Source of the DNA: Vibrio litoralis DSM 17657
Lineage (GTDB): Bacteria; Pseudomonadota; Gammaproteobacteria; Enterobacterales; Vibrionaceae
Assembly: GCF_000426765.1 (NCBI RefSeq)
Contig: NZ_AUFZ01000023.1
Coordinates: 62,001 to 126,000, forward strand
Reading direction: 5' to 3'
Length of the DNA stretch: 64,000 bases
Below the pieces are notes generated by a model. That model searched no databases and had not been told where the DNA came from. It was given only the letters and a program-made list of their open reading frames with translations. How positions within the stretch are numbered: the first letter of the stretch is position 1; the number at the start of each line of letters is the position of its first letter. Of the stretch, positions 24,306-57,815 are shown in pieces. The translations under genes were made by a program, and so were the position numbers.

Positions 24306-24327
24306 AAAAAAGCCCCTCAGTAAGGGG
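24306..24327. repeat. Prophage attL core (22-bp direct repeat)
   Basis: Six A residues then GCCCCTCAGTAAGGGG, identical to 57794-57815. Here it is followed by TTTTT, so the left copy also folds as a terminator (GCCCC/GGGGT). It lies between the diguanylate cyclase terminator and the first prophage gene. Confidence 0.85.
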
Positions 24328-24367: not shown

Positions 24368-25450
24368 TTATTTTGTGACCACATTTTGACCCAGTGGTTT
24401 GTATGGTGTGCTTAATTCCACTATTGTTTTATCGTAAGTTTCTTCTTCCATCTCAATTCCAATAAACCGTCTATTAAGTTTCAAACAAGCCTTTCCGGTT
24501 GAGCCTGAACCCATAAATGCATCGAGCACAACGGCACCTTCACGGCTACTAGTTGATATGATGTGTTCGAGTAAATCAGCCGGCTTTTCACAGGGATGCT
24601 TACCCGGGTAATATTGCACCGGCGCAAACGTCCAAACGTCAGTATAGGGAACGTCACTACTTACGCTAAACGGGCGACGCAAGGTTTCATATTCTGCCTT
24701 TAGTTCGTCATAGTCTTTTAGTAAATGTGCATATTGGCGGCTTAGTGATTGGTATTCATCAGCAAGCTCAGAGTGAGGACGAGAGAGCGCATTGCTCTTT
24801 GTTGCAAATAAGGTTTGAAGCTTTTGGTATTGCTCTTCGGTTGGTAACTTCCATTGACTGTATGAAAACCAATGCGAACACATTTGTGTACCCGTGATTC
24901 CATTAATTTCTTTTGCGGATACCTGCAGCGTTTCTTTGGCATTTTTAAAGTAATCAATCAGTGGTTTGAATACCGCCTGTTTGAGTTCGGTACATTTGGT
25001 GGCGTATTGGCAACTGCCTTTTGCAAAACCTTCTGATCCATAATGACCCGCAAAAATGATTCGCTCTGTAGATGGAAAGAAAGAACGTAAACTTGGTTTA
25101 TGAGTGCGTTTCCATGGCCCTGATGGTTTCGCCCATACAATATGGTTGAACACTTCAAAGCGCGAGCGTATGAGCATTTCAGTATCAGAGGCGAGCTTCG
25201 AGCCGCAGAAAAGGTATAAGTTACCTGACGGCTTTAATACGCGCCAAAACTCAACAAGCACTTCATCTAGCCACGCAAGGAAGCTTTCCACATCTGGCCA
25301 CTGATTATCCCAAGCATTGTTTTTAACTTGGAAATAGGGCGGGTCGGTGAGAACAAGATCAATAGAATTGGTTGGTAAGGTTTTTAGATAAGGTAGGCAA
25401 TCGGCTTGAATAAGCTGTAGTTGCCCATTGTGTAATGCGGTAGTTTTCAT
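24368..25450 (-). CDS. DPPY-type DNA methyltransferase (phage-encoded, N6-adenine or N4-cytosine)
   Basis: 360 residues from the ATG at 25450 (GGAG 7 bp upstream; a longer frame to 25540 runs through a hairpin). Motifs: LVLTDPPYF (motif IV, residues about 34-42) near the N-terminus and, late in the chain, LDAFMGSGSTGKA (motif I) followed by IGIEMEEE, i.e. the beta-class order. A coiled insert sits near residues 225-270. There is no cognate nuclease next to it, so it is probably a solitary methylase that protects phage DNA or alters host methylation. It is separated from the tail genes by a hairpin terminator and a LexA-like box. Confidence 0.85.
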   Translation of the reverse strand: MKTTALHNGQLQLIQADCLPYLKTLPTNSIDLVLTDPPYFQVKNNAWDNQWPDVESFLAWLDEVLVEFWRVLKPSGNLYLFCGSKLASDTEMLIRSRFEVFNHIVWAKPSGPWKRTHKPSLRSFFPSTERIIFAGHYGSEGFAKGSCQYATKCTELKQAVFKPLIDYFKNAKETLQVSAKEINGITGTQMCSHWFSYSQWKLPTEEQYQKLQTLFATKSNALSRPHSELADEYQSLSRQYAHLLKDYDELKAEYETLRRPFSVSSDVPYTDVWTFAPVQYYPGKHPCEKPADLLEHIISTSSREGAVVLDAFMGSGSTGKACLKLNRRFIGIEMEEETYDKTIVELSTPYKPLGQNVVTK

Positions 25451-25482
25451 TCTTTGCTCCAATAAAATAGAGCCTTGAATAC

Positions 25483-25518
25483 GAAAAAGAAACTCAGCCA
25501 CGCAATGGTGGCCGAGTC
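25483..25518 (-). terminator. Terminator between tail operon and methyltransferase gene
   Basis: On the minus strand ACTCGGCCAC, loop CATTGC, GTGGCTGAGT, then TTCTTTTT: a 10-bp stem with one G-U pair. It would end the tape-measure transcript, or attenuate transcription from the LexA-like box. Confidence 0.75.
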
Positions 25519-25605
25519 GGTTTATATGCTTCCTCTCCAAAAAATGATTTGGGTCTCAGGTACTCAAGGCATAAAACAAAATGATTCTACCAATAAAAAT
25601 AAATA

Positions 25606-37285: not shown

Positions 37286-37930
37286 CTAATGATTGTTTTT
37301 AATGTTTTGTAGGTATTCAACAAGAGTATGTATCTGTGTGGATGGATTATCACACTCATTTTTTTCTGCTGAATTTTGCGCATTCGTAGCATTTATTTTT
37401 GCAGTTTCTAATTTATCTAATAATTTTATAAAAATTCCTTTTTCACCTTTTTCATAACTTCCCATTCCTGGTTTATTTTTTAAGTCTCTAATTACTTGAG
37501 TACCAACACTGTTACCTGTTTGAGATACATAAGCACGTGTTGTGTATTCAAAATGTAACAGTAGCCAGTATTCAAAACATGGTATAGATTGGACACTTTT
37601 AAATACATCACCTTTTTGAGCTTTTATTTTATCTAGTGCTTCAAAATAACAAGTATGATTATCTTTATCTATAACACAAAAGACTTTATCAAAAGGAGAA
37701 CCTAACTTCTCTTCTTTTTTTGCTAAGGCTTTTGCATGATTGACAACACAAATGGGACTTGACCCACAGTCGCCATCTATAATGATATTTAATGATGATA
37801 TCTCATATAGATTTTTTATTTCATTAAAATAATTAGGTTCGGTTTTTGATCCTTCGGAAACAATAAGAATTTTATCATAAGGATCTTTTTTATTTGAAGT
37901 TCGTTTCGAACCTTTCGGTTGTCTAGCCAT
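37286..37930 (-). CDS. RloB-family protein (Toprim-like nuclease subunit of an AbiL/RloAB-type system)
   Basis: 214 residues. KILIVSEGSKTEPNYF (first Toprim Glu), KVFCVIDKDNH (the DxD-like acidic motif) and SIPCFEYWLLLHFE are RloB family hallmarks. The start overlaps the stop of the ATPase gene (TAATG), so the two are translationally coupled. In related defence systems the Toprim subunit is the effector, released or activated by the ATPase upon phage sensing. That this pair is active is inference. Base composition is clearly more AT-rich than the flanking head and lysis genes. Confidence 0.85.
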   Translation of the reverse strand: MARQPKGSKRTSNKKDPYDKILIVSEGSKTEPNYFNEIKNLYEISSLNIIIDGDCGSSPICVVNHAKALAKKEEKLGSPFDKVFCVIDKDNHTCYFEALDKIKAQKGDVFKSVQSIPCFEYWLLLHFEYTTRAYVSQTGNSVGTQVIRDLKNKPGMGSYEKGEKGIFIKLLDKLETAKINATNAQNSAEKNECDNPSTQIHTLVEYLQNIKNNH

Positions 37931-39213
37931 TATTTATCATCCATGAAAATCTTTTTAATGAATGGAAGAGCACCATATTTTCCAGATAAATAGTTGCGTT
38001 CAATATTTTCAATGCCTTTTCTAACATGGAAATCGCTCAATGAATATATTGATGTGGATTGTTCTTTATTTTTTTCACAGAACCAAATTTGATCTCGCCT
38101 AAATACTTCTTGGCTCAAAATTGATGTTTCATGTGTAGTAAAAATCAATTGAGCATTGTTTTTATTTTTAATTGGATCATTAAACAGTGAAACCAAAAAC
38201 TTCACCATTGATGGGTGGAGGCTATTGTGTAATTCATCTATAAATACAACCAAACCTTCTTCGAGACTTTCAACTAATGGAGCAGCAAGAGAAAATATTC
38301 TTTGAGTTCCATCAGATTCATCATTTAGATCTAAATAATGAATACCACCATTTAGTGACTTATGCCCAGTTTTTACTGTTAGTGTTTTTGTATCTTTTAG
38401 TTTTTCGGCTACTGCTTTTTTTAATTCAGTAGGAAGGCCATCGGGTAATTCGGATAAGTTGAACTCTTTAGCTTCAACTTGGATATCATCTATACCGAGA
38501 TCGCCAGCTTTGAGGAAGTCCAATACATCTTTGATATCTTTATTTTCGTGTATTTTCTTTGCTGTATAAGTAGGGTCTATACCATCAAAACCAACGGCAT
38601 TTAACTTTTGTGTAAACCATGTATAGATTGGTTCCAGTTGCTTACTATTTAGCTGTATAGCTGTAGATAGAAATAAGGCGTTATCTCTAGTTGCCTCTTT
38701 CCATACAGATTTAGTGCCAGTTAAGTAGCTATCTTTAGACCAAATGTATGCGTGGCTTTCTTCATTATATTCACGATTAAACCATGTTTGAGCTCTACCA
38801 TTTGGATAAGCAAATAACCACTCTTCAATAATCCTTTGTTTGGTCGCACTAAAGCCATACTGGTATCGTGTGCCATCAATTATAAAATCAATGTCAAATT
38901 CAGTAGGTTGGCTGATTGAATCAGATGCAAACATAAAAGGTTCCACATCAAGAGTATCTTCTGACTGGAGCTTACTTGCAGAAGAACTTACTAACCATTT
39001 CATCTCGGCTAATGCTTTGATTATATTTGATTTTCCAGCAGCATTTGCACCATATATAACAGCGCTTCTTACTAACCCCATGTTTGCCGCACCTTTAGCA
39101 TCTACATCAAAGGTGTTTGTTTTTGATAGTTCGTTACCTGAACCTTTGATGAGCTGAAGGGTGATTTCATCTTTTATTGAACGGAAATTCTTTACTGAAA
39201 ACTGTATTAGCAT
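37930..39213 (-). CDS. AAA15-family ATPase (RloA/AbiLi-like) of a putative phage-defence pair
   Basis: 427 residues. N-terminus IQFSVKNFRSIKDEITLQL, Walker A GANAAGKS (residues 55-62), Walker B LVVFIDELHNSLHP and the switch His in TTHETSILS give the ABC-type AAA15/COG1106 signature. It is first in a two-gene operon with RloB, a pairing known from abortive-infection (AbiL) and restriction-linked (Rlo) loci. It probably senses a phage product and controls the Toprim partner. A 292-bp AT-rich gap before it would hold the promoter. Confidence 0.85.
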   Translation of the reverse strand: MLIQFSVKNFRSIKDEITLQLIKGSGNELSKTNTFDVDAKGAANMGLVRSAVIYGANAAGKSNIIKALAEMKWLVSSSASKLQSEDTLDVEPFMFASDSISQPTEFDIDFIIDGTRYQYGFSATKQRIIEEWLFAYPNGRAQTWFNREYNEESHAYIWSKDSYLTGTKSVWKEATRDNALFLSTAIQLNSKQLEPIYTWFTQKLNAVGFDGIDPTYTAKKIHENKDIKDVLDFLKAGDLGIDDIQVEAKEFNLSELPDGLPTELKKAVAEKLKDTKTLTVKTGHKSLNGGIHYLDLNDESDGTQRIFSLAAPLVESLEEGLVVFIDELHNSLHPSMVKFLVSLFNDPIKNKNNAQLIFTTHETSILSQEVFRRDQIWFCEKNKEQSTSIYSLSDFHVRKGIENIERNYLSGKYGALPFIKKIFMDDK

Positions 39214-48024: not shown

Positions 48025-49602
48025 TTAGGTGAGTAGTTGAATTAGACATTCGCCAAGCTTTAAGCCTAATAATGGCGGGACCGCATTCCCAACTTGGGTA
48101 TATTGAGGTACTTCAAACTTTCTCATTTGTCCTCCTGTTGTTACTTTAGAACGGAAAACAAAGTTGTCTGGAAACGACTGAATCCTAGCCATTTCGCGAA
48201 CAGTTAAGACTCGTAATTCATGTTCATCATAATGACAAGCATCATCAGGAATGGATAATGCAGCAGGAGCTGGAGCATTCGCTACCAGAGCTCTTTGAGT
48301 TTGTTTTTTTGTTGGATGAGCTAGAAGGTAATCAATAAACCCTTGTTTAGTCGCAAATGGCAACAACTCTCCATTTTTGTGAAGGTACTTATATGTGCGG
48401 CAGATCTCCCATACATCATCAGCTAACTCAGTCGAGTTACCTTTTAGGATACTGAAAACCTGCTTGGTTATTGAACTGTCATTAATTGATTGCAGGATTT
48501 GGTATAACCTAAATCTGCGTTGAACGATTTCTCCATTATTGCGAAAGTCATGGTTAAACAGTTCGGTTCTTTGAGGCAGATGTTCAAATGTTGTATTAAG
48601 AGTTGTAATAAACTCCGAAGGCCCCGATGGAGAATTTTGTTTTAAATCGTCAAGTGCATCACGAACAGTAACATTATTTCCATTAACCAAAGGTGCTAAA
48701 AATGATTTTTCAAATAGTGGACGATGTAGTGGTTTTGTCGCATCAAAGTAGTCTAAGTGTCCAAATTCTAAGCCATCGCCAACTTGTTGAACTAGGTTAT
48801 AAAAATTTAATGATGGGGCAAATAATTGTTTATTTGAACTGCCATTTTCAAAGTGTTTCGAAATAAAGTTGTAATGATCAAGCCTAACCGCGATCATTAT
48901 AAATCGAGGTCTGTTTTGCGCTATTCCAGCTAATCTTGCATTGATGTGTAGGCATAGCGGCACATATCCAATAGAAGCAAATACCTTCGCAACTTCATAC
49001 CAAGCATGAAAACTATTACCTTCTTCATCTTTGAAAGCACGCAGAATTCCAGTCACATTCTCAAGCATGGCAATTTTAGGTTGAGTATGTCGAACAAATT
49101 TGGCGAATTCCCAAGGGAGGGTATTTTTCTCACAATCTCGCTTACGGAGACCTGCCATGCTAAAACTTTGGCATGGTGGGCCTCCAGAAACTAAATCAAG
49201 TCCATTGGTCGAACCAAATGCCGTTCTTAATTGTGTTAGTAGCTCTTTATCTGAATCTAATAAACGGTTTAATTCAACGATACTACCAACAACTAATTTG
49301 CCTTGTAATTCTTCTGGACTATTAGGAATGTCGCTATTACCAACATCATCAAATGCAGGAAAAGTGAACGGGTTTTCACGTAGTCTTGGTTTCAATTCTG
49401 CAAAGTTACTGTTTAACCACAGTGTGTTTTGGGCTTTTTGCCCTTTTTTTGCGAGTTCTTCTAGGTTTTCATTAAAGAAGTTATAGGCAAATGATTCGGC
49501 TGCCATAGGAGAAAGTTCGTTTGCCATTGTTAGCTCAAAACCACTATGTTCAAGTCCTAGAGAAAGGCCACCGCAGCCGGAAAATAATTCTATATGATTC
49601 AC
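48025..49602 (-). CDS. C5-cytosine DNA methyltransferase (type II restriction-modification)
   Basis: 525 residues. Motif I ELFSGCGGLSLGLEHSGF (residues 5-22), motif IV GGPPCQSFSMAG with catalytic Cys144, motif VI ENV (181-183), motif VIII QNRPRFIMIAV and motif X YTQVGNAVPPLLG are all present. An insertion of about 80 residues separates motifs I and IV. It methylates cytosine C5 within a specific site and protects DNA from the adjacent nuclease (49997-51427), with which it is divergent. Confidence 0.93.
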   Translation of the reverse strand: MNHIELFSGCGGLSLGLEHSGFELTMANELSPMAAESFAYNFFNENLEELAKKGQKAQNTLWLNSNFAELKPRLRENPFTFPAFDDVGNSDIPNSPEELQGKLVVGSIVELNRLLDSDKELLTQLRTAFGSTNGLDLVSGGPPCQSFSMAGLRKRDCEKNTLPWEFAKFVRHTQPKIAMLENVTGILRAFKDEEGNSFHAWYEVAKVFASIGYVPLCLHINARLAGIAQNRPRFIMIAVRLDHYNFISKHFENGSSNKQLFAPSLNFYNLVQQVGDGLEFGHLDYFDATKPLHRPLFEKSFLAPLVNGNNVTVRDALDDLKQNSPSGPSEFITTLNTTFEHLPQRTELFNHDFRNNGEIVQRRFRLYQILQSINDSSITKQVFSILKGNSTELADDVWEICRTYKYLHKNGELLPFATKQGFIDYLLAHPTKKQTQRALVANAPAPAALSIPDDACHYDEHELRVLTVREMARIQSFPDNFVFRSKVTTGGQMRKFEVPQYTQVGNAVPPLLGLKLGECLIQLLT

Positions 49603-49996
49603 AATAAACCCAGTATTTTAAATTTAGATGGAGGATTCTATTCAATCATTTAGCAAATGTCCAGGCCTAATTTATGCTGGTTATGTACATTGACATGTAA
49701 TCTTTCACTAATGTATTGTTATTCAAGGCTAATGAGAGCAGCCAACCATCAAGTGTAAAGACCCCTTCTGGTCCTCTCTGTAGATAAATCGACATGTATG
49801 TTGGTGTCTATTTGCAGTTGTGACTGACTTCGATAAAACAACCCAATCGTTATTTATCTACTTAGACATCCGTTTAGGTGGTTCAACTGTGTCCCACCTC
49901 GCTGACGTCTATGTTGGGCTGAGAAGGGGAGCCTTAATAAAAAGCGCTAATGCGTACCCAATGTTGATTATTAATTCCAGACGTTGGGGCGACATC
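49603..49996. other. Divergent promoter region of the restriction-modification pair
   Basis: 394 bp between methyltransferase and nuclease genes. Frame-open sequence continues 59 codons upstream of the nuclease ATG (from 49820), but its composition and lack of a ribosome site do not support coding. I see no gene for a controller protein and no clear C-box. Confidence 0.5.
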
Positions 49997-51427
49997 ATGA
50001 GTACATCGAGTACTAACCTACCTACTATTGACCGAATCAAGCAACGAGCTAAAAAACTAAAGAAAGAACAAGGGATTACACATTCAGAGGCACTAGAAAT
50101 AATCAGTGTTTCATTTGGGTTTAATGATTGGCCTTCTTTCCAAAAAGAATTAAAAAAAAATGAGCAGACTAATAGCCTTAGTCTATTAGTGGATACTATT
50201 CCACCAGATATGATAATTAATGACGAGACTGAGAATATAGCTCAAAATCGATCAGCAGACCTCGCCAATGATTTAAAAACACAAATAATTGATAATAAAA
50301 AACAGCTGACCAAAGTAGGGGCTGAGTTCTCAATATTTGAGCCTACGATTACGGGACTTAAAAAATCCATTTTAGATGCTACACAGCCTGTCCGGACTCA
50401 TTTTGAGTTAGAAGATTTTCATTTTTATTATAATCAAGAACAAGGGCCTGAATTTAAGGTTCAAAAAGACGCTTATTTTGTAACAGATGAAGCGATAACA
50501 AAATCTATTGTTAGCCTCTATCGACCTAAAACTAAAAAGGGTGATCCTCGAATGTGGTTTAGAGGCTTACCTAACTTTGCAAAGCCAGAAGATAAAATTG
50601 CCATTGTCCTTAAGGAAGGTATACCACACCTTATAAATTTGAGTTCGACTCTACTTAAAAATTCATTAAAGAAAGATAATTCTTATATTAAGGACTTTTT
50701 AGCGAGCTTTATTGTTTTAGAAAATAGGGTTGCTGATGAGCTACTTTATAAAATTAAAATGTTAGCTAAAACTCCATTTCCAGCTTTACGTCAAGGTGAT
50801 ACTGCTATTGGTTACACATTAGAAACGATGTTAGGCATTGTTGCTAACTCAAGTAAAGAACCTGACTATCAGGGCATTGAAATAAAGTCAGGTAGAGGGG
50901 TTAAAACTCGAACAACTCTTTTTGCTCAAGTTGCAGACTGGGGAAAAAGCCCATGTAAAAAAAGTGCTGAAATATTAGATAAATATGGTTATGAGCGTGA
51001 AGGTGAGTTCAAACTGTATTGTACCATATCAACTCAGAGAGAAAATTCACAAGGTTTAAGCTTTATCTATGATCAGTCGAAGGATGAACTTCAAGAATGG
51101 CACAATAAGAATACTCTTGTTGCTGTTTGGCCGGGAGACTTATTACGAAAAAGATTAAAAGAGAAACATGCTGAAACGTTTTGGGTTGAAGCAATAAGTG
51201 AGTTAGTTGATGGTGTTGAGACTTTTCAGTTGTTAACTGTAACTCACACAAAATCTCCGATTGTCAGTCAATTAATGCCATTGATTGAATCTGGTGTTAT
51301 TACCATGGATCATTTAATCAAGAGAAACGATAAAGGGCGTGTTAGTGAAAAAGGGCCATTATTTAAAATAAATAAAAGGGATTTAGATTTGTTGTTCCCA
51401 GAGCCCATTATATATCAATTAGTTTAA
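49997..51427 (+). CDS. MvaI/BcnI-family restriction endonuclease with N-terminal helical domain
   Basis: 476 residues from the ATG at 49997, with GGGGCG upstream; earlier starts give a less plausible N-terminus. Residues 5-50 (IDRIKQRAKKLKKEQGITHS, ALEIISVSFGFNDWPSFQKE) resemble the small helical domain annotated as glyoxalase-related, seen in several toxins and plasmid proteins. Residues about 200-470 resemble MvaI/BcnI nucleases: FRGLPNFAKPEDKIAIV, LRQGDTAIGYTLETMLGI and DYQGIEIKSGRG, the D...ExK catalytic core. MvaI and BcnI cut CCWGG and CCSGG; a CCNGG-like site here is inference. Convergent with ogr (21 bp apart). Confidence 0.85.
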   Translation: MSTSSTNLPTIDRIKQRAKKLKKEQGITHSEALEIISVSFGFNDWPSFQKELKKNEQTNSLSLLVDTIPPDMIINDETENIAQNRSADLANDLKTQIIDNKKQLTKVGAEFSIFEPTITGLKKSILDATQPVRTHFELEDFHFYYNQEQGPEFKVQKDAYFVTDEAITKSIVSLYRPKTKKGDPRMWFRGLPNFAKPEDKIAIVLKEGIPHLINLSSTLLKNSLKKDNSYIKDFLASFIVLENRVADELLYKIKMLAKTPFPALRQGDTAIGYTLETMLGIVANSSKEPDYQGIEIKSGRGVKTRTTLFAQVADWGKSPCKKSAEILDKYGYEREGEFKLYCTISTQRENSQGLSFIYDQSKDELQEWHNKNTLVAVWPGDLLRKRLKEKHAETFWVEAISELVDGVETFQLLTVTHTKSPIVSQLMPLIESGVITMDHLIKRNDKGRVSEKGPLFKINKRDLDLLFPEPIIYQLV

Positions 51428-54867: not shown

Positions 54868-55134
54868 TCAATAAGAAAACTGATCAGAAGGAACACGCAC
54901 ATCCCAATCAGCAGCTTGAAGTGAGCTCATTACCATTGCCGCTTGGTTCACGTAAATGGTTGTGCCTTTTGCGCGTTGAATGGTTGGGATTAGTCCACGT
55001 TGGGCTTGGTCACGAACTGCTCTCAATGTTTGATTTGTTTTTCTTGCATAGGCATCAAGCGTGAGTGGCAATAAATCTGGTTGGATCACAACTGTTACGG
55101 CTTGTTGATTTTTTTCTTCATTAGGAACAGCCAT
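54868..55134 (-). CDS. cox: Cox-like regulator/excisionase
   Basis: 88 residues from the ATG at 55134 (GAGGA 8 bp upstream). A winged-helix-like core, LDAYARKTNQTLRAVRDQAQ then RGLIPTIQRAKGTTIYVNQ, parallels P2 Cox (FAKLIGKSTGAVRRMIDKGKLP). It is first gene of the early operon and divergent from the repressor. By analogy it directs excision and represses the repressor promoter. Confidence 0.78.
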   Translation of the reverse strand: MAVPNEEKNQQAVTVVIQPDLLPLTLDAYARKTNQTLRAVRDQAQRGLIPTIQRAKGTTIYVNQAAMVMSSLQAADWDVRVPSDQFSY

Positions 55135-55160
55135 TTGTAGTATCCTCAATCAATTAAATA

Positions 55161-55250: not shown

Positions 55251-55934
55251 ATGCGCGAATGGTTTCTAAGTTCTGAGTTAATGGAGATAGATGGGCTGCC
55301 TAGCTCACCTCAAGGGCTTAGCCAGAAAGCAAAAAGGAATGATTGGAAAAGTCGTAAGGCAAGTGGAAAAGGTACTGCTTTGGAATATCACATTTCCAAC
55401 TTTAGCAATGATGTAATTGAGCAGTTACAAGCCAAGTACGGGCAAGAAGCTGAAATTACACCTCTTCACAGTAATGCTGGCGAGATGAGAGAATTGACTA
55501 GCCTTGAAGTGGAGCCGATCCCTGTTTACAACGTTTATGCCGCTTGTGGTTTTGGTTCTTTGGTAGACACTGAATATCAAATTCGTACGACTTATTTACC
55601 TAGCGACATGCTTAGACGTTTTGGGTTATGCACGAAAACAGGCCGGATTATCACGTGCCAAGGTGATTCGATGGAAGATACCTTGAGTGATGGTGATGAA
55701 GTCTTAGTTGATATCCGCGAACTGGATCACCCAGTAAAGAATGGTGTGTATGTGGTTCGAATTGGTAAGCATGTTTTTATCAAGCGCCTAAAGTACAACA
55801 TCCTTGCTGAAAGCTATGACGTGGTTTCAGATAACACAGAAGAATATGACCCGTTTACTTTGACCAAGCAGCAACTAGAAGAGTTTGCGATTGAAGGTAA
55901 AGTGGTCACAACAGTGATGAAAGCGGTTTTGTGA
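55251..55934 (+). CDS. Phage repressor: Mu-type DNA-binding domain fused to S24 peptidase
   Basis: 227 residues. N-terminal EWFLSSELMEIDGLPSSPQG, LSQKAKRNDWKSRKA resembles the DNA-binding domain of Mu repressor/transposase. The C-terminal LexA/S24 part has a Cys-Gly cleavage site (YAACGFGS, 99-100), Ser140 (QGDSMEDTL) and Lys178 (VFIKRL). It keeps lysogeny and would self-cleave with RecA-ssDNA after DNA damage. First gene of a plus-strand lysogenic operon with the SEFIR and integrase genes. Confidence 0.9.
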   Translation: MREWFLSSELMEIDGLPSSPQGLSQKAKRNDWKSRKASGKGTALEYHISNFSNDVIEQLQAKYGQEAEITPLHSNAGEMRELTSLEVEPIPVYNVYAACGFGSLVDTEYQIRTTYLPSDMLRRFGLCTKTGRIITCQGDSMEDTLSDGDEVLVDIRELDHPVKNGVYVVRIGKHVFIKRLKYNILAESYDVVSDNTEEYDPFTLTKQQLEEFAIEGKVVTTVMKAVL

Positions 55935-55976
55935 TTTTTATGCCCACGTTTGTGGTTTTTTTATATAAGGTTAAAT

Positions 55977-56717
55977 ATGAGCAGTACACCAACAGTTTTT
56001 ATTTCATACTCTCATGATAGTGTTGAACACAAACAGTGGTCATTAAATTTAGCTATAAGGTTAATGCACTCCGGTATTGATACAATTATTGACGCATGGA
56101 GCCTAGAACCTGGCGATGATTTACCACATTTTATGGAAACATCGCTAAACAGATCAGATCGAATAATTATGGTTTGTACTGATAATTATGTAGCTAAAGC
56201 TAATAAAGGATCTGGAGGCGTTGGATATGAAAAAATGATAGTAACATCAAGTTTAATGACTAATATTGATAACAATAAAGTTATTCCTATTATTAGGCAA
56301 AAAGGTTCTTCAGATGTGCCTACTTTTCTAAAGTCTAAGCTTTATATCGACTTTTCAAATGATGATGAATATGAAGCTGTAATTGATGATCTTATTCGAG
56401 CAATTCATGGTGAACCATTATTTAAAAAGCCGGATCTAGGTAGTAATCCTTTTTTACCTGTGGAAAACAAATTAGCTGAAAAAAATAATGACTTTAAAGA
56501 AAAAGTGTTATTTACCATTATTTGGTTTTATGAGAAGAACTATACAGGCTTGACTATTGATACATTATGCAGCCATATGGGTGCGTCAAAGATACTAATA
56601 GAATTTCAATTGGAAGAATTAGTTGAAGATGGTTTTATTGATATTATTGCTGAGATGTTTATCAATCTTCAGAAGAAAGCAAAATTATTTGCAATTCAGA
56701 AAGGTTGGGTAGGTTGA
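55977..56717 (+). CDS. SEFIR/TIR-like domain protein (putative prophage defence gene)
   Basis: 246 residues from the ATG at 55977 (AAGG 7 bp upstream). The N-terminal half is SEFIR-like: TVFISYSHDSVEHKQWSLNL, IDTIIDAWSLEPGDDLPHFM, SDRIIMVCTDNYVAKANKGS, GGVGYEKMIV, VIPIIRQ, YIDFSNDDEYE. The Glu in GYEKMI may be catalytic. The C-terminal 70 residues look like a winged helix (LTIDTLCSHMGASKILIEFQ). TIR/SEFIR proteins in defence systems often degrade NAD or bind nucleotide signals. It is AT-rich relative to its neighbours and expressed from the lysogenic operon. Function here is inferred. Confidence 0.82.
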   Translation: MSSTPTVFISYSHDSVEHKQWSLNLAIRLMHSGIDTIIDAWSLEPGDDLPHFMETSLNRSDRIIMVCTDNYVAKANKGSGGVGYEKMIVTSSLMTNIDNNKVIPIIRQKGSSDVPTFLKSKLYIDFSNDDEYEAVIDDLIRAIHGEPLFKKPDLGSNPFLPVENKLAEKNNDFKEKVLFTIIWFYEKNYTGLTIDTLCSHMGASKILIEFQLEELVEDGFIDIIAEMFINLQKKAKLFAIQKGWVG

Positions 56718-56733
56718 TAGACTACTTTTATAT

Positions 56734-57702
56734 ATGAGCATTAAATCAATTAAAAACGGCTACGAAGTCGATTGCCGTCCACAAGGCCGTGATGGTAAGC
56801 GTTATCGTAAAAAATTCGCCACTAAAGCAGAAGCTCAACAGTACGAACGTCACTTACTGGCTACCCGTAACAACAAAGAATGGTTAGAGAAACCGCAGGA
56901 TAAACGCTCTTTAACTGAGCTTATTGAACTGTGGTTTTTTCACCACGGGCAATATTTGAAACGTGGGACCAGGGACAAAGTTATCCTTGAATTGATGAAC
57001 AAGGAAATGGGCTACCCAAAGGCATATCAGATCACCGCTAAACGTTTTTCAGAGTATCGCGCATCCGCACTCGCTAAAGGCAACAAGCCCAGCACAATCA
57101 ATCGTAACTCTAATCGCTTGAGTAGTGTGTTTACTGCTTTAATTAAAGTCGATGAATTTCACGCTGAACATCCATTAAAAGGTATTGCTAAATTAAAAGA
57201 GCAGCCGACGGAAATGGGGTTTCTAAGTAAAGATGAAATTAGGCACTTACTTTCGGTTCTGCGTGGTGACCACCTTAAAGTCGCTAAAGTCTGCTTGTCT
57301 ACAGGGGCTCGTTGGGGAGAAGCGCAAAACTTGCGAGGTTCTGATATCGTAAATGGTACCGTGACTTTTCACGATACTAAAAATGGTAAGAATCGTTCGA
57401 TACCGATCAGCCCTGAGTTATATCAAGAAATTTATACGGGCAAGAGTGGGCGCTTATTTAAAGATTGCTATGGCGCATTTTATTCTATGCTTAGAGAGCA
57501 AAACTTTGATTTACCAAAAGGGCAGGGAGCACATGTTTTACGCCATACTTTTGCTAGTCACTTTATGATGAATGGCGGTAATATTCTCACTCTGCAAAAA
57601 ATCTTAGGCCATGGTACCGTGCTTCAAACTATGCGTTATGCGCACCTTTCCCCTGACTACCTCAATGAAGCACTCACGCTTAATCCCTTGTCCACAATTT
57701 GA
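56734..57702 (+). CDS. int: Tyrosine-recombinase integrase
   Basis: 322 residues: Arm-binding N-terminus (RPQGRDGKRYRKKFATKAEA), SAM-like core-binding domain, then catalytic residues Arg (LSTGARWGEAQNLRG), Lys, HVLRHTFASHF (His-x-x-Arg), LGHGTVLQTMRYAHLSP (His and nucleophile Tyr). It ends 92 bp before attR (57794), as in P2-like phages. It integrates at the pst terminator. Confidence 0.94.
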   Translation: MSIKSIKNGYEVDCRPQGRDGKRYRKKFATKAEAQQYERHLLATRNNKEWLEKPQDKRSLTELIELWFFHHGQYLKRGTRDKVILELMNKEMGYPKAYQITAKRFSEYRASALAKGNKPSTINRNSNRLSSVFTALIKVDEFHAEHPLKGIAKLKEQPTEMGFLSKDEIRHLLSVLRGDHLKVAKVCLSTGARWGEAQNLRGSDIVNGTVTFHDTKNGKNRSIPISPELYQEIYTGKSGRLFKDCYGAFYSMLREQNFDLPKGQGAHVLRHTFASHFMMNGGNILTLQKILGHGTVLQTMRYAHLSPDYLNEALTLNPLSTI

Positions 57703-57793: not shown

Positions 57794-57815
57794 AAAAAAG
57801 CCCCTCAGTAAGGGG
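57794..57815. repeat. Prophage attR core and pstSCAB terminator
   Basis: Identical 22-bp copy of attL (24306-24327). On the minus strand it reads GCCCCTTACTGAGGGGC then TTTTTT, i.e. a Rho-independent terminator about 84 bp after pstB. So the phage att core restores the host terminator after integration. Confidence 0.85.

Follow-up and report, generated by a model that had tools for sequence, protein, structure and literature searches.

The window analysed here is a stretch of 64,000 nucleotides of the Vibrio litoralis DSM 17657 genome, and it contains a 33.5 kb P2-related prophage bounded by a perfect 22-bp repeat. Within the prophage a gene for a SEFIR-domain protein lies between the phage repressor gene and the integrase gene (int), starting 42 bp after the former and ending 16 bp before the latter, with all three genes on the forward strand (Table 1). 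This order and spacing, reported in an initial annotation of the DNA, are correct as measured. A mechanical open reading frame opens further upstream at a TTG (55950), although the ATG that we have chosen as the start is preferred because it fits better to the relatives, and close relatives start at the same position. The three SEFIR-type blocks named in the same annotation, FISYSHDS (residues 8–15), GVGYEKMI (81–88) and YIDFSNDD (123–130), are all present in the product, far beyond chance expectation, and the gene is much richer in AT than its neighbours, as was also claimed: its GC content is 31.7% compared to 42.7% for the repressor gene and 42.4% for int, and its GC3 is 0.22 compared to 0.40 in both flanking genes.

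Table 1. Features of the SEFIR locus and its prophage (positions in the window).
Feature	Position	Strand	Basis
Left copy of 22-bp direct repeat, probable attL	24306..24327		Perfect repeat
Cox-like excisionase/repressor, divergent from the lysogeny genes	54868..55149	-	PHROG 575, E 7.3e-8
Phage repressor (HTH_Tnp_Mu_1 + Peptidase_S24), in the place of cI	55251..55934	+	Pfam
Weak hairpin (4 bp, -4.5 kcal/mol) followed by a T-run, possible attenuator	55944..55962	+	Folding of the repressor-SEFIR gap
SEFIR-winged-helix gene, putative compact bSEFIR-like defence protein, 246 aa	55977..56717	+	Pfam, PADLOC, relatives, AlphaFold2
SEFIR domain, residues 5-147	55989..56417	+	Pfam, PDB, structure matches
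Codon of Glu85, aligned with the invariant Glu of TIR rows	56229..56231	+	Profile-profile alignment
C-terminal winged helix, residues 169-246	56481..56714	+	AlphaFold2, fold matches
P2-type tyrosine integrase (int)	56734..57702	+	Pfam, BLASTP comparisons
Right copy of 22-bp direct repeat, probable attR	57794..57815		Overlaps a terminator-like hairpin of the - strand

The prophage encodes capsid, portal, terminase and sheath proteins of the P2 family, and its integrase is 52% identical to those of P2-like coliphages. The gene beside the right copy of the repeat is one that we take to be pstB, and because the repeat overlaps the terminator-like hairpin next to it, the phage apparently uses a transcription terminator as its integration site. 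Other genes of the prophage are also of a kind associated with defence. An AAA ATPase gene and a RloB-like gene (37286–39213, reverse strand; PADLOC AbiLi 1.8e-102, AbiLii 4e-27) sit beside the portal gene and are likely a second defence cassette, and divergent genes for a cytosine-5 DNA methyltransferase and an MvaI/BcnI-family restriction endonuclease (48025–51427) likely constitute a third, of the type II restriction-modification kind. An N6/N4 DNA methyltransferase gene (24368–25540, reverse strand; PADLOC MTase_II, E 7.6e-111) is located just inside the left repeat.

The N-terminal domain of the protein passes the curated cut-offs of two Pfam models, TIR_2 (E 4.7e-21, 76 bits against a cut-off of 28) and, at a lower score, SEFIR (PF08357; E 5.1e-14, 53.2 bits against 23). 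In PADLOC the bSEFIR model matches with an E-value of 4.6e-81, the match being limited to model positions 35–241 of 412, and ThsB matches only at E 0.026. None of the NCBIfam models scores above its cut-off, and ThcB4 (E 0.0018) is far under its own. A profile built from alignment A2, which holds 76 relatives from a search that kept the best 80 of 284, matches the prokaryotic SEFIR domain 5y8e among solved structures (E 3.1e-41). An AlphaFold2 model of the whole protein (mean pLDDT 86.6, pTM 0.59) matches 5y8f best among solved structures (Z 18.5; 135 residues at rmsd 2.2), and further structure matches include the TIR domains of SPARTA and SARM1 (Z 13–17). The SEFIR/TIR fold expected from the initial annotation is thus found both by profile search and by structure prediction. 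When aligned by hhalign with nine TIR-type Vibrio rows, Glu85 falls on their invariant Glu, at the TIR active-site position; it is present in all 76 relatives of A2 (again from the best 80 of 284), and the V. litoralis protein keeps each of the 29 positions that are invariant in that alignment. By analogy with TIR enzymes, Glu85 is presumably the catalytic residue.

A C-terminal winged helix that may sense nucleic acid had also been proposed, and these two parts of the claim fared differently. The winged helix itself is well founded: it is predicted with high confidence in the full AlphaFold2 model, and the last 82 residues, folded alone from 48 rows, give a winged helix again with a mean pLDDT of 91.7. 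Foldseek searches with the C-terminal part place IdeR/DtxR in the best rows (E 1.2e-3, with none below 0.001), and VIA matches it to MepR and DtxR-like structures with Z about 11 and rmsd about 2–3.5 over 69–80 residues. This is the fold of DNA-binding winged helices, so that contact with phage DNA or RNA might activate the SEFIR effector, and a Lys or Arg at position 205 in 70 of the 76 rows could be explained by DNA contact. However, a common fold proves no function, and the recognition helix (residues 205–217) is on average not basic. Its mean net charge is -0.33 in the 76 relatives, 22 of which are at +1 or more and 37 at -1 or less, and -3 in the V. litoralis protein, compared to a mean of +0.74 in 23 MarR-type helices (Mann-Whitney p 6e-4, with relatedness ignored; this control is a single family, in which the helix was readable in 23 of 24 domains and at least two are apparently out of register). 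Position 209, moreover, is Asp or Glu in 70 of the 76 rows. The charge of the recognition helix speaks mildly against DNA binding by the winged helix, and the claim that the domain is a nucleic-acid sensor, which found no support in these data, is in our view unlikely to be right.

We also searched for the same winged helix fused to other effectors, using a profile (A5) against 274 genomes of the class. The sole strong match was the V. litoralis gene itself (3.4e-20), and the 17 other matches were at 3.2e-4 or weaker, with partial coverage of the model and the look of generic HTH domains; no domain swap was seen in this set.

Anti-phage systems of the bSEFIR (or SEFIR) type, PADLOC PDLC03957, were reportedly described by Millman and colleagues in 2022. 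The V. litoralis gene resembles bSEFIR in being a single gene with an N-terminal SEFIR domain, but the bSEFIR model has 412 positions compared to 246 residues here, and the match stops at position 241, after which the V. litoralis protein has its short winged helix. With the C-terminal half of the model unmatched, the gene is a variant and not a canonical bSEFIR, and results obtained with bSEFIR need not carry over to a protein that matches positions 35–241 alone. The major capsid protein is cited in a passage of PMC10884400 as what SEFIR recognises; given the difference in the C-terminal half, another trigger is conceivable here. Passages of PMC12322248, PMC12774641 and PMC11559045 list SEFIR systems among those that deplete NAD+. 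The solved prokaryotic SEFIR structures 5y8e and 5y8f have the GGVG-x-E block in common with the V. litoralis protein, although they are isolated domains and are 35–39% identical to it, and the SPARTA TIR-APAZ and SARM1 TIR domains share the TIR-type fold but have 18–24% identity and other sensor parts. In the passages of the literature that we searched, mostly open-access, we found no description of a short SEFIR form with a winged-helix tail.

Compact relatives with the same architecture have 243–260 residues as trimmed for alignment, with a median of 248. They occur in records named Pseudomonadota, Bacteroidota, Verrucomicrobiota, Planctomycetota, Acidobacteriota, Chloroflexota and Thermodesulfobacteriota, among others, and many of these are MAGs. 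Some match is present in 22 of 227 Vibrio genomes and the full compact form in eight, V. litoralis being included in both counts, and in one further genome (G136) the gene is split in two frames. At the level of the order, 11 of 295 genomes match at 1e-40, eight over the compact length and three in the SEFIR part only. Other SEFIR proteins from the same searches have different, mostly longer C-terminal parts. The two halves of the compact proteins have diverged very unequally, with mean pairwise identities of 63% for SEFIR halves but 25% for winged helices (2850 pairs, in none of which the order is reversed), a gap that is partly biased because the relatives were found by motifs of the SEFIR half and the best 80 of 284 were kept.

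A tree of the 76 SEFIR halves contains ten rows from viral contigs or prophages, and these correspond to eight changes of label, at least five of them across strongly supported branches. Shuffled labels give 9.6 changes on average, and 30 of 500 shuffles were as low as eight. The pattern agrees with repeated exchange between phages and chromosomes, and the remaining rows may include prophage copies. The V. litoralis row groups with two viral-contig rows and with V. splendidus (support 100/100).

No conserved partner gene was found beside the compact relatives. In Pfam tallies of the nearest neighbours of at least 75 aa given by a simple ORF picker (77 of 78 on each side), the commonest family occurs in 4 of 77 upstream and 3 of 77 downstream neighbours, and in an all-against-all clustering of 347 neighbours within three genes the largest cluster covers 5 of 81 loci. 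TIR families are seen in 3 of the 77 downstream neighbours. The absence of a conserved neighbour in these data agrees with a one-gene system, as had been supposed at the outset. Many of the neighbours are ordinary chromosomal genes, and the prophage setting is therefore not general for the compact relatives.

The neighbourhoods also bear on a Thoeris-like arrangement. The TIR protein of Thoeris makes a messenger from NAD+ (main text of PMC9122126), and the SEFIR domain might similarly make a product, such as a modified nucleotide, that activates a separate effector. In Thoeris, however, the effector gene is adjacent, and here the neighbours are the repressor and int; the SEFIR gene is alone in its interval, and there is no conserved gene beside the 81 clustered loci, both statements applying to the adjoining genes. 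We consider such a signal maker quite improbable.

The cI-int interval of P2-related Vibrionaceae prophages is a published defence hotspot. For the two hotspots that it describes, the main text of Rousset et al. 2022 (PMC9122126) names restriction-modification, Septu, Helicase+DUF2290 and PARIS and nowhere mentions SEFIR, a statement that covers the main text alone. The V. litoralis gene is situated in this interval, between the phage repressor and the integrase of a P2-related Vibrionaceae prophage. Repressor relatives were located at 37 places in Vibrio, from which 20 long stretches were fetched; 17 of these have both repressor and integrase (14 with cargo, three empty), and eight further empty intervals were taken from short loci. 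Among the 25 with both genes visible, 14 thus have varied cargo and 11 are empty, a count in which two loci (L290 and L292) have identical cargo lengths, the integrase of four long intervals (L284, L289, L298 and L299) possibly belongs to another element, and that of L293 is short. Eight of the 14 cargo-bearing relatives have the integrase gene on the opposite strand, so that the interval is often not a single operon. The nearest relative by integrase (87%) has a repressor-int gap of 163 bp with no gene called inside, and the SEFIR gene is therefore an insert and not part of the core lysogeny circuit. Among viral contigs whose integrase is related (the best 80 of at least 599), the gap is shorter than 200 bp in 68 and mostly empty; of the rest, four have an ORF between the two genes, one has a 5-kb interval, six have no recognised repressor and one has no integrase.

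Much of the cargo in related prophages is defence-like. Six of ten cargo proteins tested against PADLOC, from six of eight prophages or phages, match a model (PDC-S33, Argonaute-like, Hp1, REase_II, PDC-S31 and Hp2), and a wider scan of 57 of 66 cargo proteins gave further matches such as PifA, AbiTii and PDC-S21; the wider scan left out four proteins of L292, four of L298 and one of L299, and included the V. litoralis SEFIR protein and two proteins of phage K139. The published hotspot and these matches support this part of the initial annotation, in which lysogeny operons of P2-like phages are said often to carry superinfection-exclusion cargo. In one P2-like phage (L184, 5285–5989) a gene between repressor and int encodes a protein of 234 aa that starts with a zinc-ribbon-like stretch and matches WYL in part.

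Several known phages can be compared at this position. K139 has cI, orf2, glo and int on one strand with an annotated lysogenic promoter, and glo is noted for phage exclusion, although K139 is distant kin: its integrase is 40% and its capsid 28% identical, and BLASTP finds no likeness between the two repressors. Judged by terminase (72%) and repressor (53%), the closest phage record is V. cyclitrophicus phage 10N.237.312.G08_PE003, in which four genes, three of them noted as Rst_3HP, lie between the repressor and an integrase on the opposite strand. Two P2-like enterobacterial phages, Klebsiella phage ST15-OXA48phi14.1 and Escherichia phage 500465-1, encode a SEFIR protein that is 37% identical over residues 5–158, but their SEFIR gene is at another place, flanked by the portal gene and a DinI-type gene, and the Klebsiella protein is longer (1434-bp gene) and has another C-terminal part. 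The SEFIR gene family and the cI-int storage spot are thus already known; the difference from the PADLOC bSEFIR model lies in the C-terminal half of the compact architecture.

We considered, and rejected, the idea that the SEFIR family as a whole has a fixed slot. Among 82 members, scanned with narrow models built from the V. litoralis repressor and int, the order repressor-SEFIR-int was seen in V. litoralis only. Looser associations do occur. In a viral contig from a distant phage (L135, 7052–10535), a BRCT gene like K139 orf2 (40%) is followed by a compact SEFIR gene, a gene for 200 aa that does not resemble K139 glo, and an integrase gene with an interrupting stop; a repressor could not be recognised upstream of the orf2-like gene, and the upstream gene is presumably trpS. 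Its SEFIR row is on another tree branch, outside the 57-row group of the V. litoralis protein (support 100/99), and compact SEFIR genes may therefore have entered such intervals more than once. A Pseudoalteromonas locus (L047) has an S24 repressor gene 79 bp upstream of the SEFIR gene and a downstream gene without a Pfam match, a Duganella locus (L087) has an integrase gene two genes downstream, and in another prophage (L130, 592–2387) int is followed by a compact SEFIR gene with a 4-bp overlap. In viral contigs longer than 35 kb, the SEFIR gene is within 1.8 kb of an end in six of seven (the V. litoralis prophage included), these ends being predicted borders.

The position between repressor and int, and the winged helix, could suggest that the protein is a lysogeny-control gene, in which the winged helix would regulate the repressor or int and the SEFIR part would merely assemble the protein. 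We think this very improbable, since relatives of the prophage have no SEFIR gene or have unrelated genes at that place, relatives of the SEFIR protein occur in many phyla, and the catalytic-type Glu is invariant. It is just as improbable that the gene is a decaying or inactive passenger, as its composition, foreign to the phage, and the split Vibrio relative might suggest, given an open frame with all the invariant positions kept and the full-length form in eight Vibrio genomes.

No forward-strand promoter-like site was found just upstream of the SEFIR gene or of the repressor gene, in a scan that is weak evidence (6 sites compared to 9.7 in shuffled sequence). The gap between the two genes contains a weak hairpin followed by a T-run, and uninterrupted co-transcription of repressor and SEFIR gene is accordingly not assured. 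When the 32-nt piece was shuffled 200 times, the hairpin was equalled 7 times; in the 56-nt piece it is not unusual, and its 4 bp fall under the minimum of five pairs in our hairpin scan.

Homology and genomic context give good support to a predicted role in defence, and we consider it likely that the gene is a single-gene SEFIR-type abortive-infection system, carried as cargo of the cI-int hotspot in a P2-related Vibrio prophage. In such a system the N-terminal SEFIR domain would be the effector, which when activated would assemble and consume NAD+, and the loss of NAD+ would stall or kill the infected cell before the rival phage matures. Sensing or regulation would fall to the C-terminal winged helix, which diverges fast and would recognise a phage or host product, a protein being a more likely trigger than bare DNA. 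If the gene is on the repressor transcript, it would be on in the lysogen, providing immunity, and would be turned down on induction, so that the phage's own lytic cycle would be spared. We infer the NADase activity, sensing, trigger, expression and protection from the homologies and gene order described above.

More tentatively, and with somewhat less than even confidence, we suggest that compact SEFIR-winged-helix proteins, of about 248 residues, found in many phyla and spread by phages among others, may be immune receptors of a distinct one-gene class, whose winged helix has gone over from DNA binding to become a quickly evolving detector of phage or host proteins that switches on a TIR-like, NAD-consuming domain. 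The protein is a small candidate for a complete immune receptor, in which a single chain would combine a TIR-like effector with a sensor of about 80 residues, and because the C-terminal part diverges far more than the effector, the question of sensing would be testable by swapping halves and by selecting escape phages. The Vibrionaceae defence hotspot, although published, has been little explored, and a SEFIR gene can now be added to its cargo; the prophage concerned apparently has two more defence cassettes.

Some loci of compact relatives have further features of their own. At three of them (L030, L032 and L041) a resolvase-type gene of about 178–204 aa precedes the compact SEFIR gene, and the two may be a mobile unit; at a fourth (L124) a resolvase-type gene is two genes upstream. 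In a Verrucomicrobiales MAG (L098, 7084–8762), two compact SEFIR genes are arranged in tandem.
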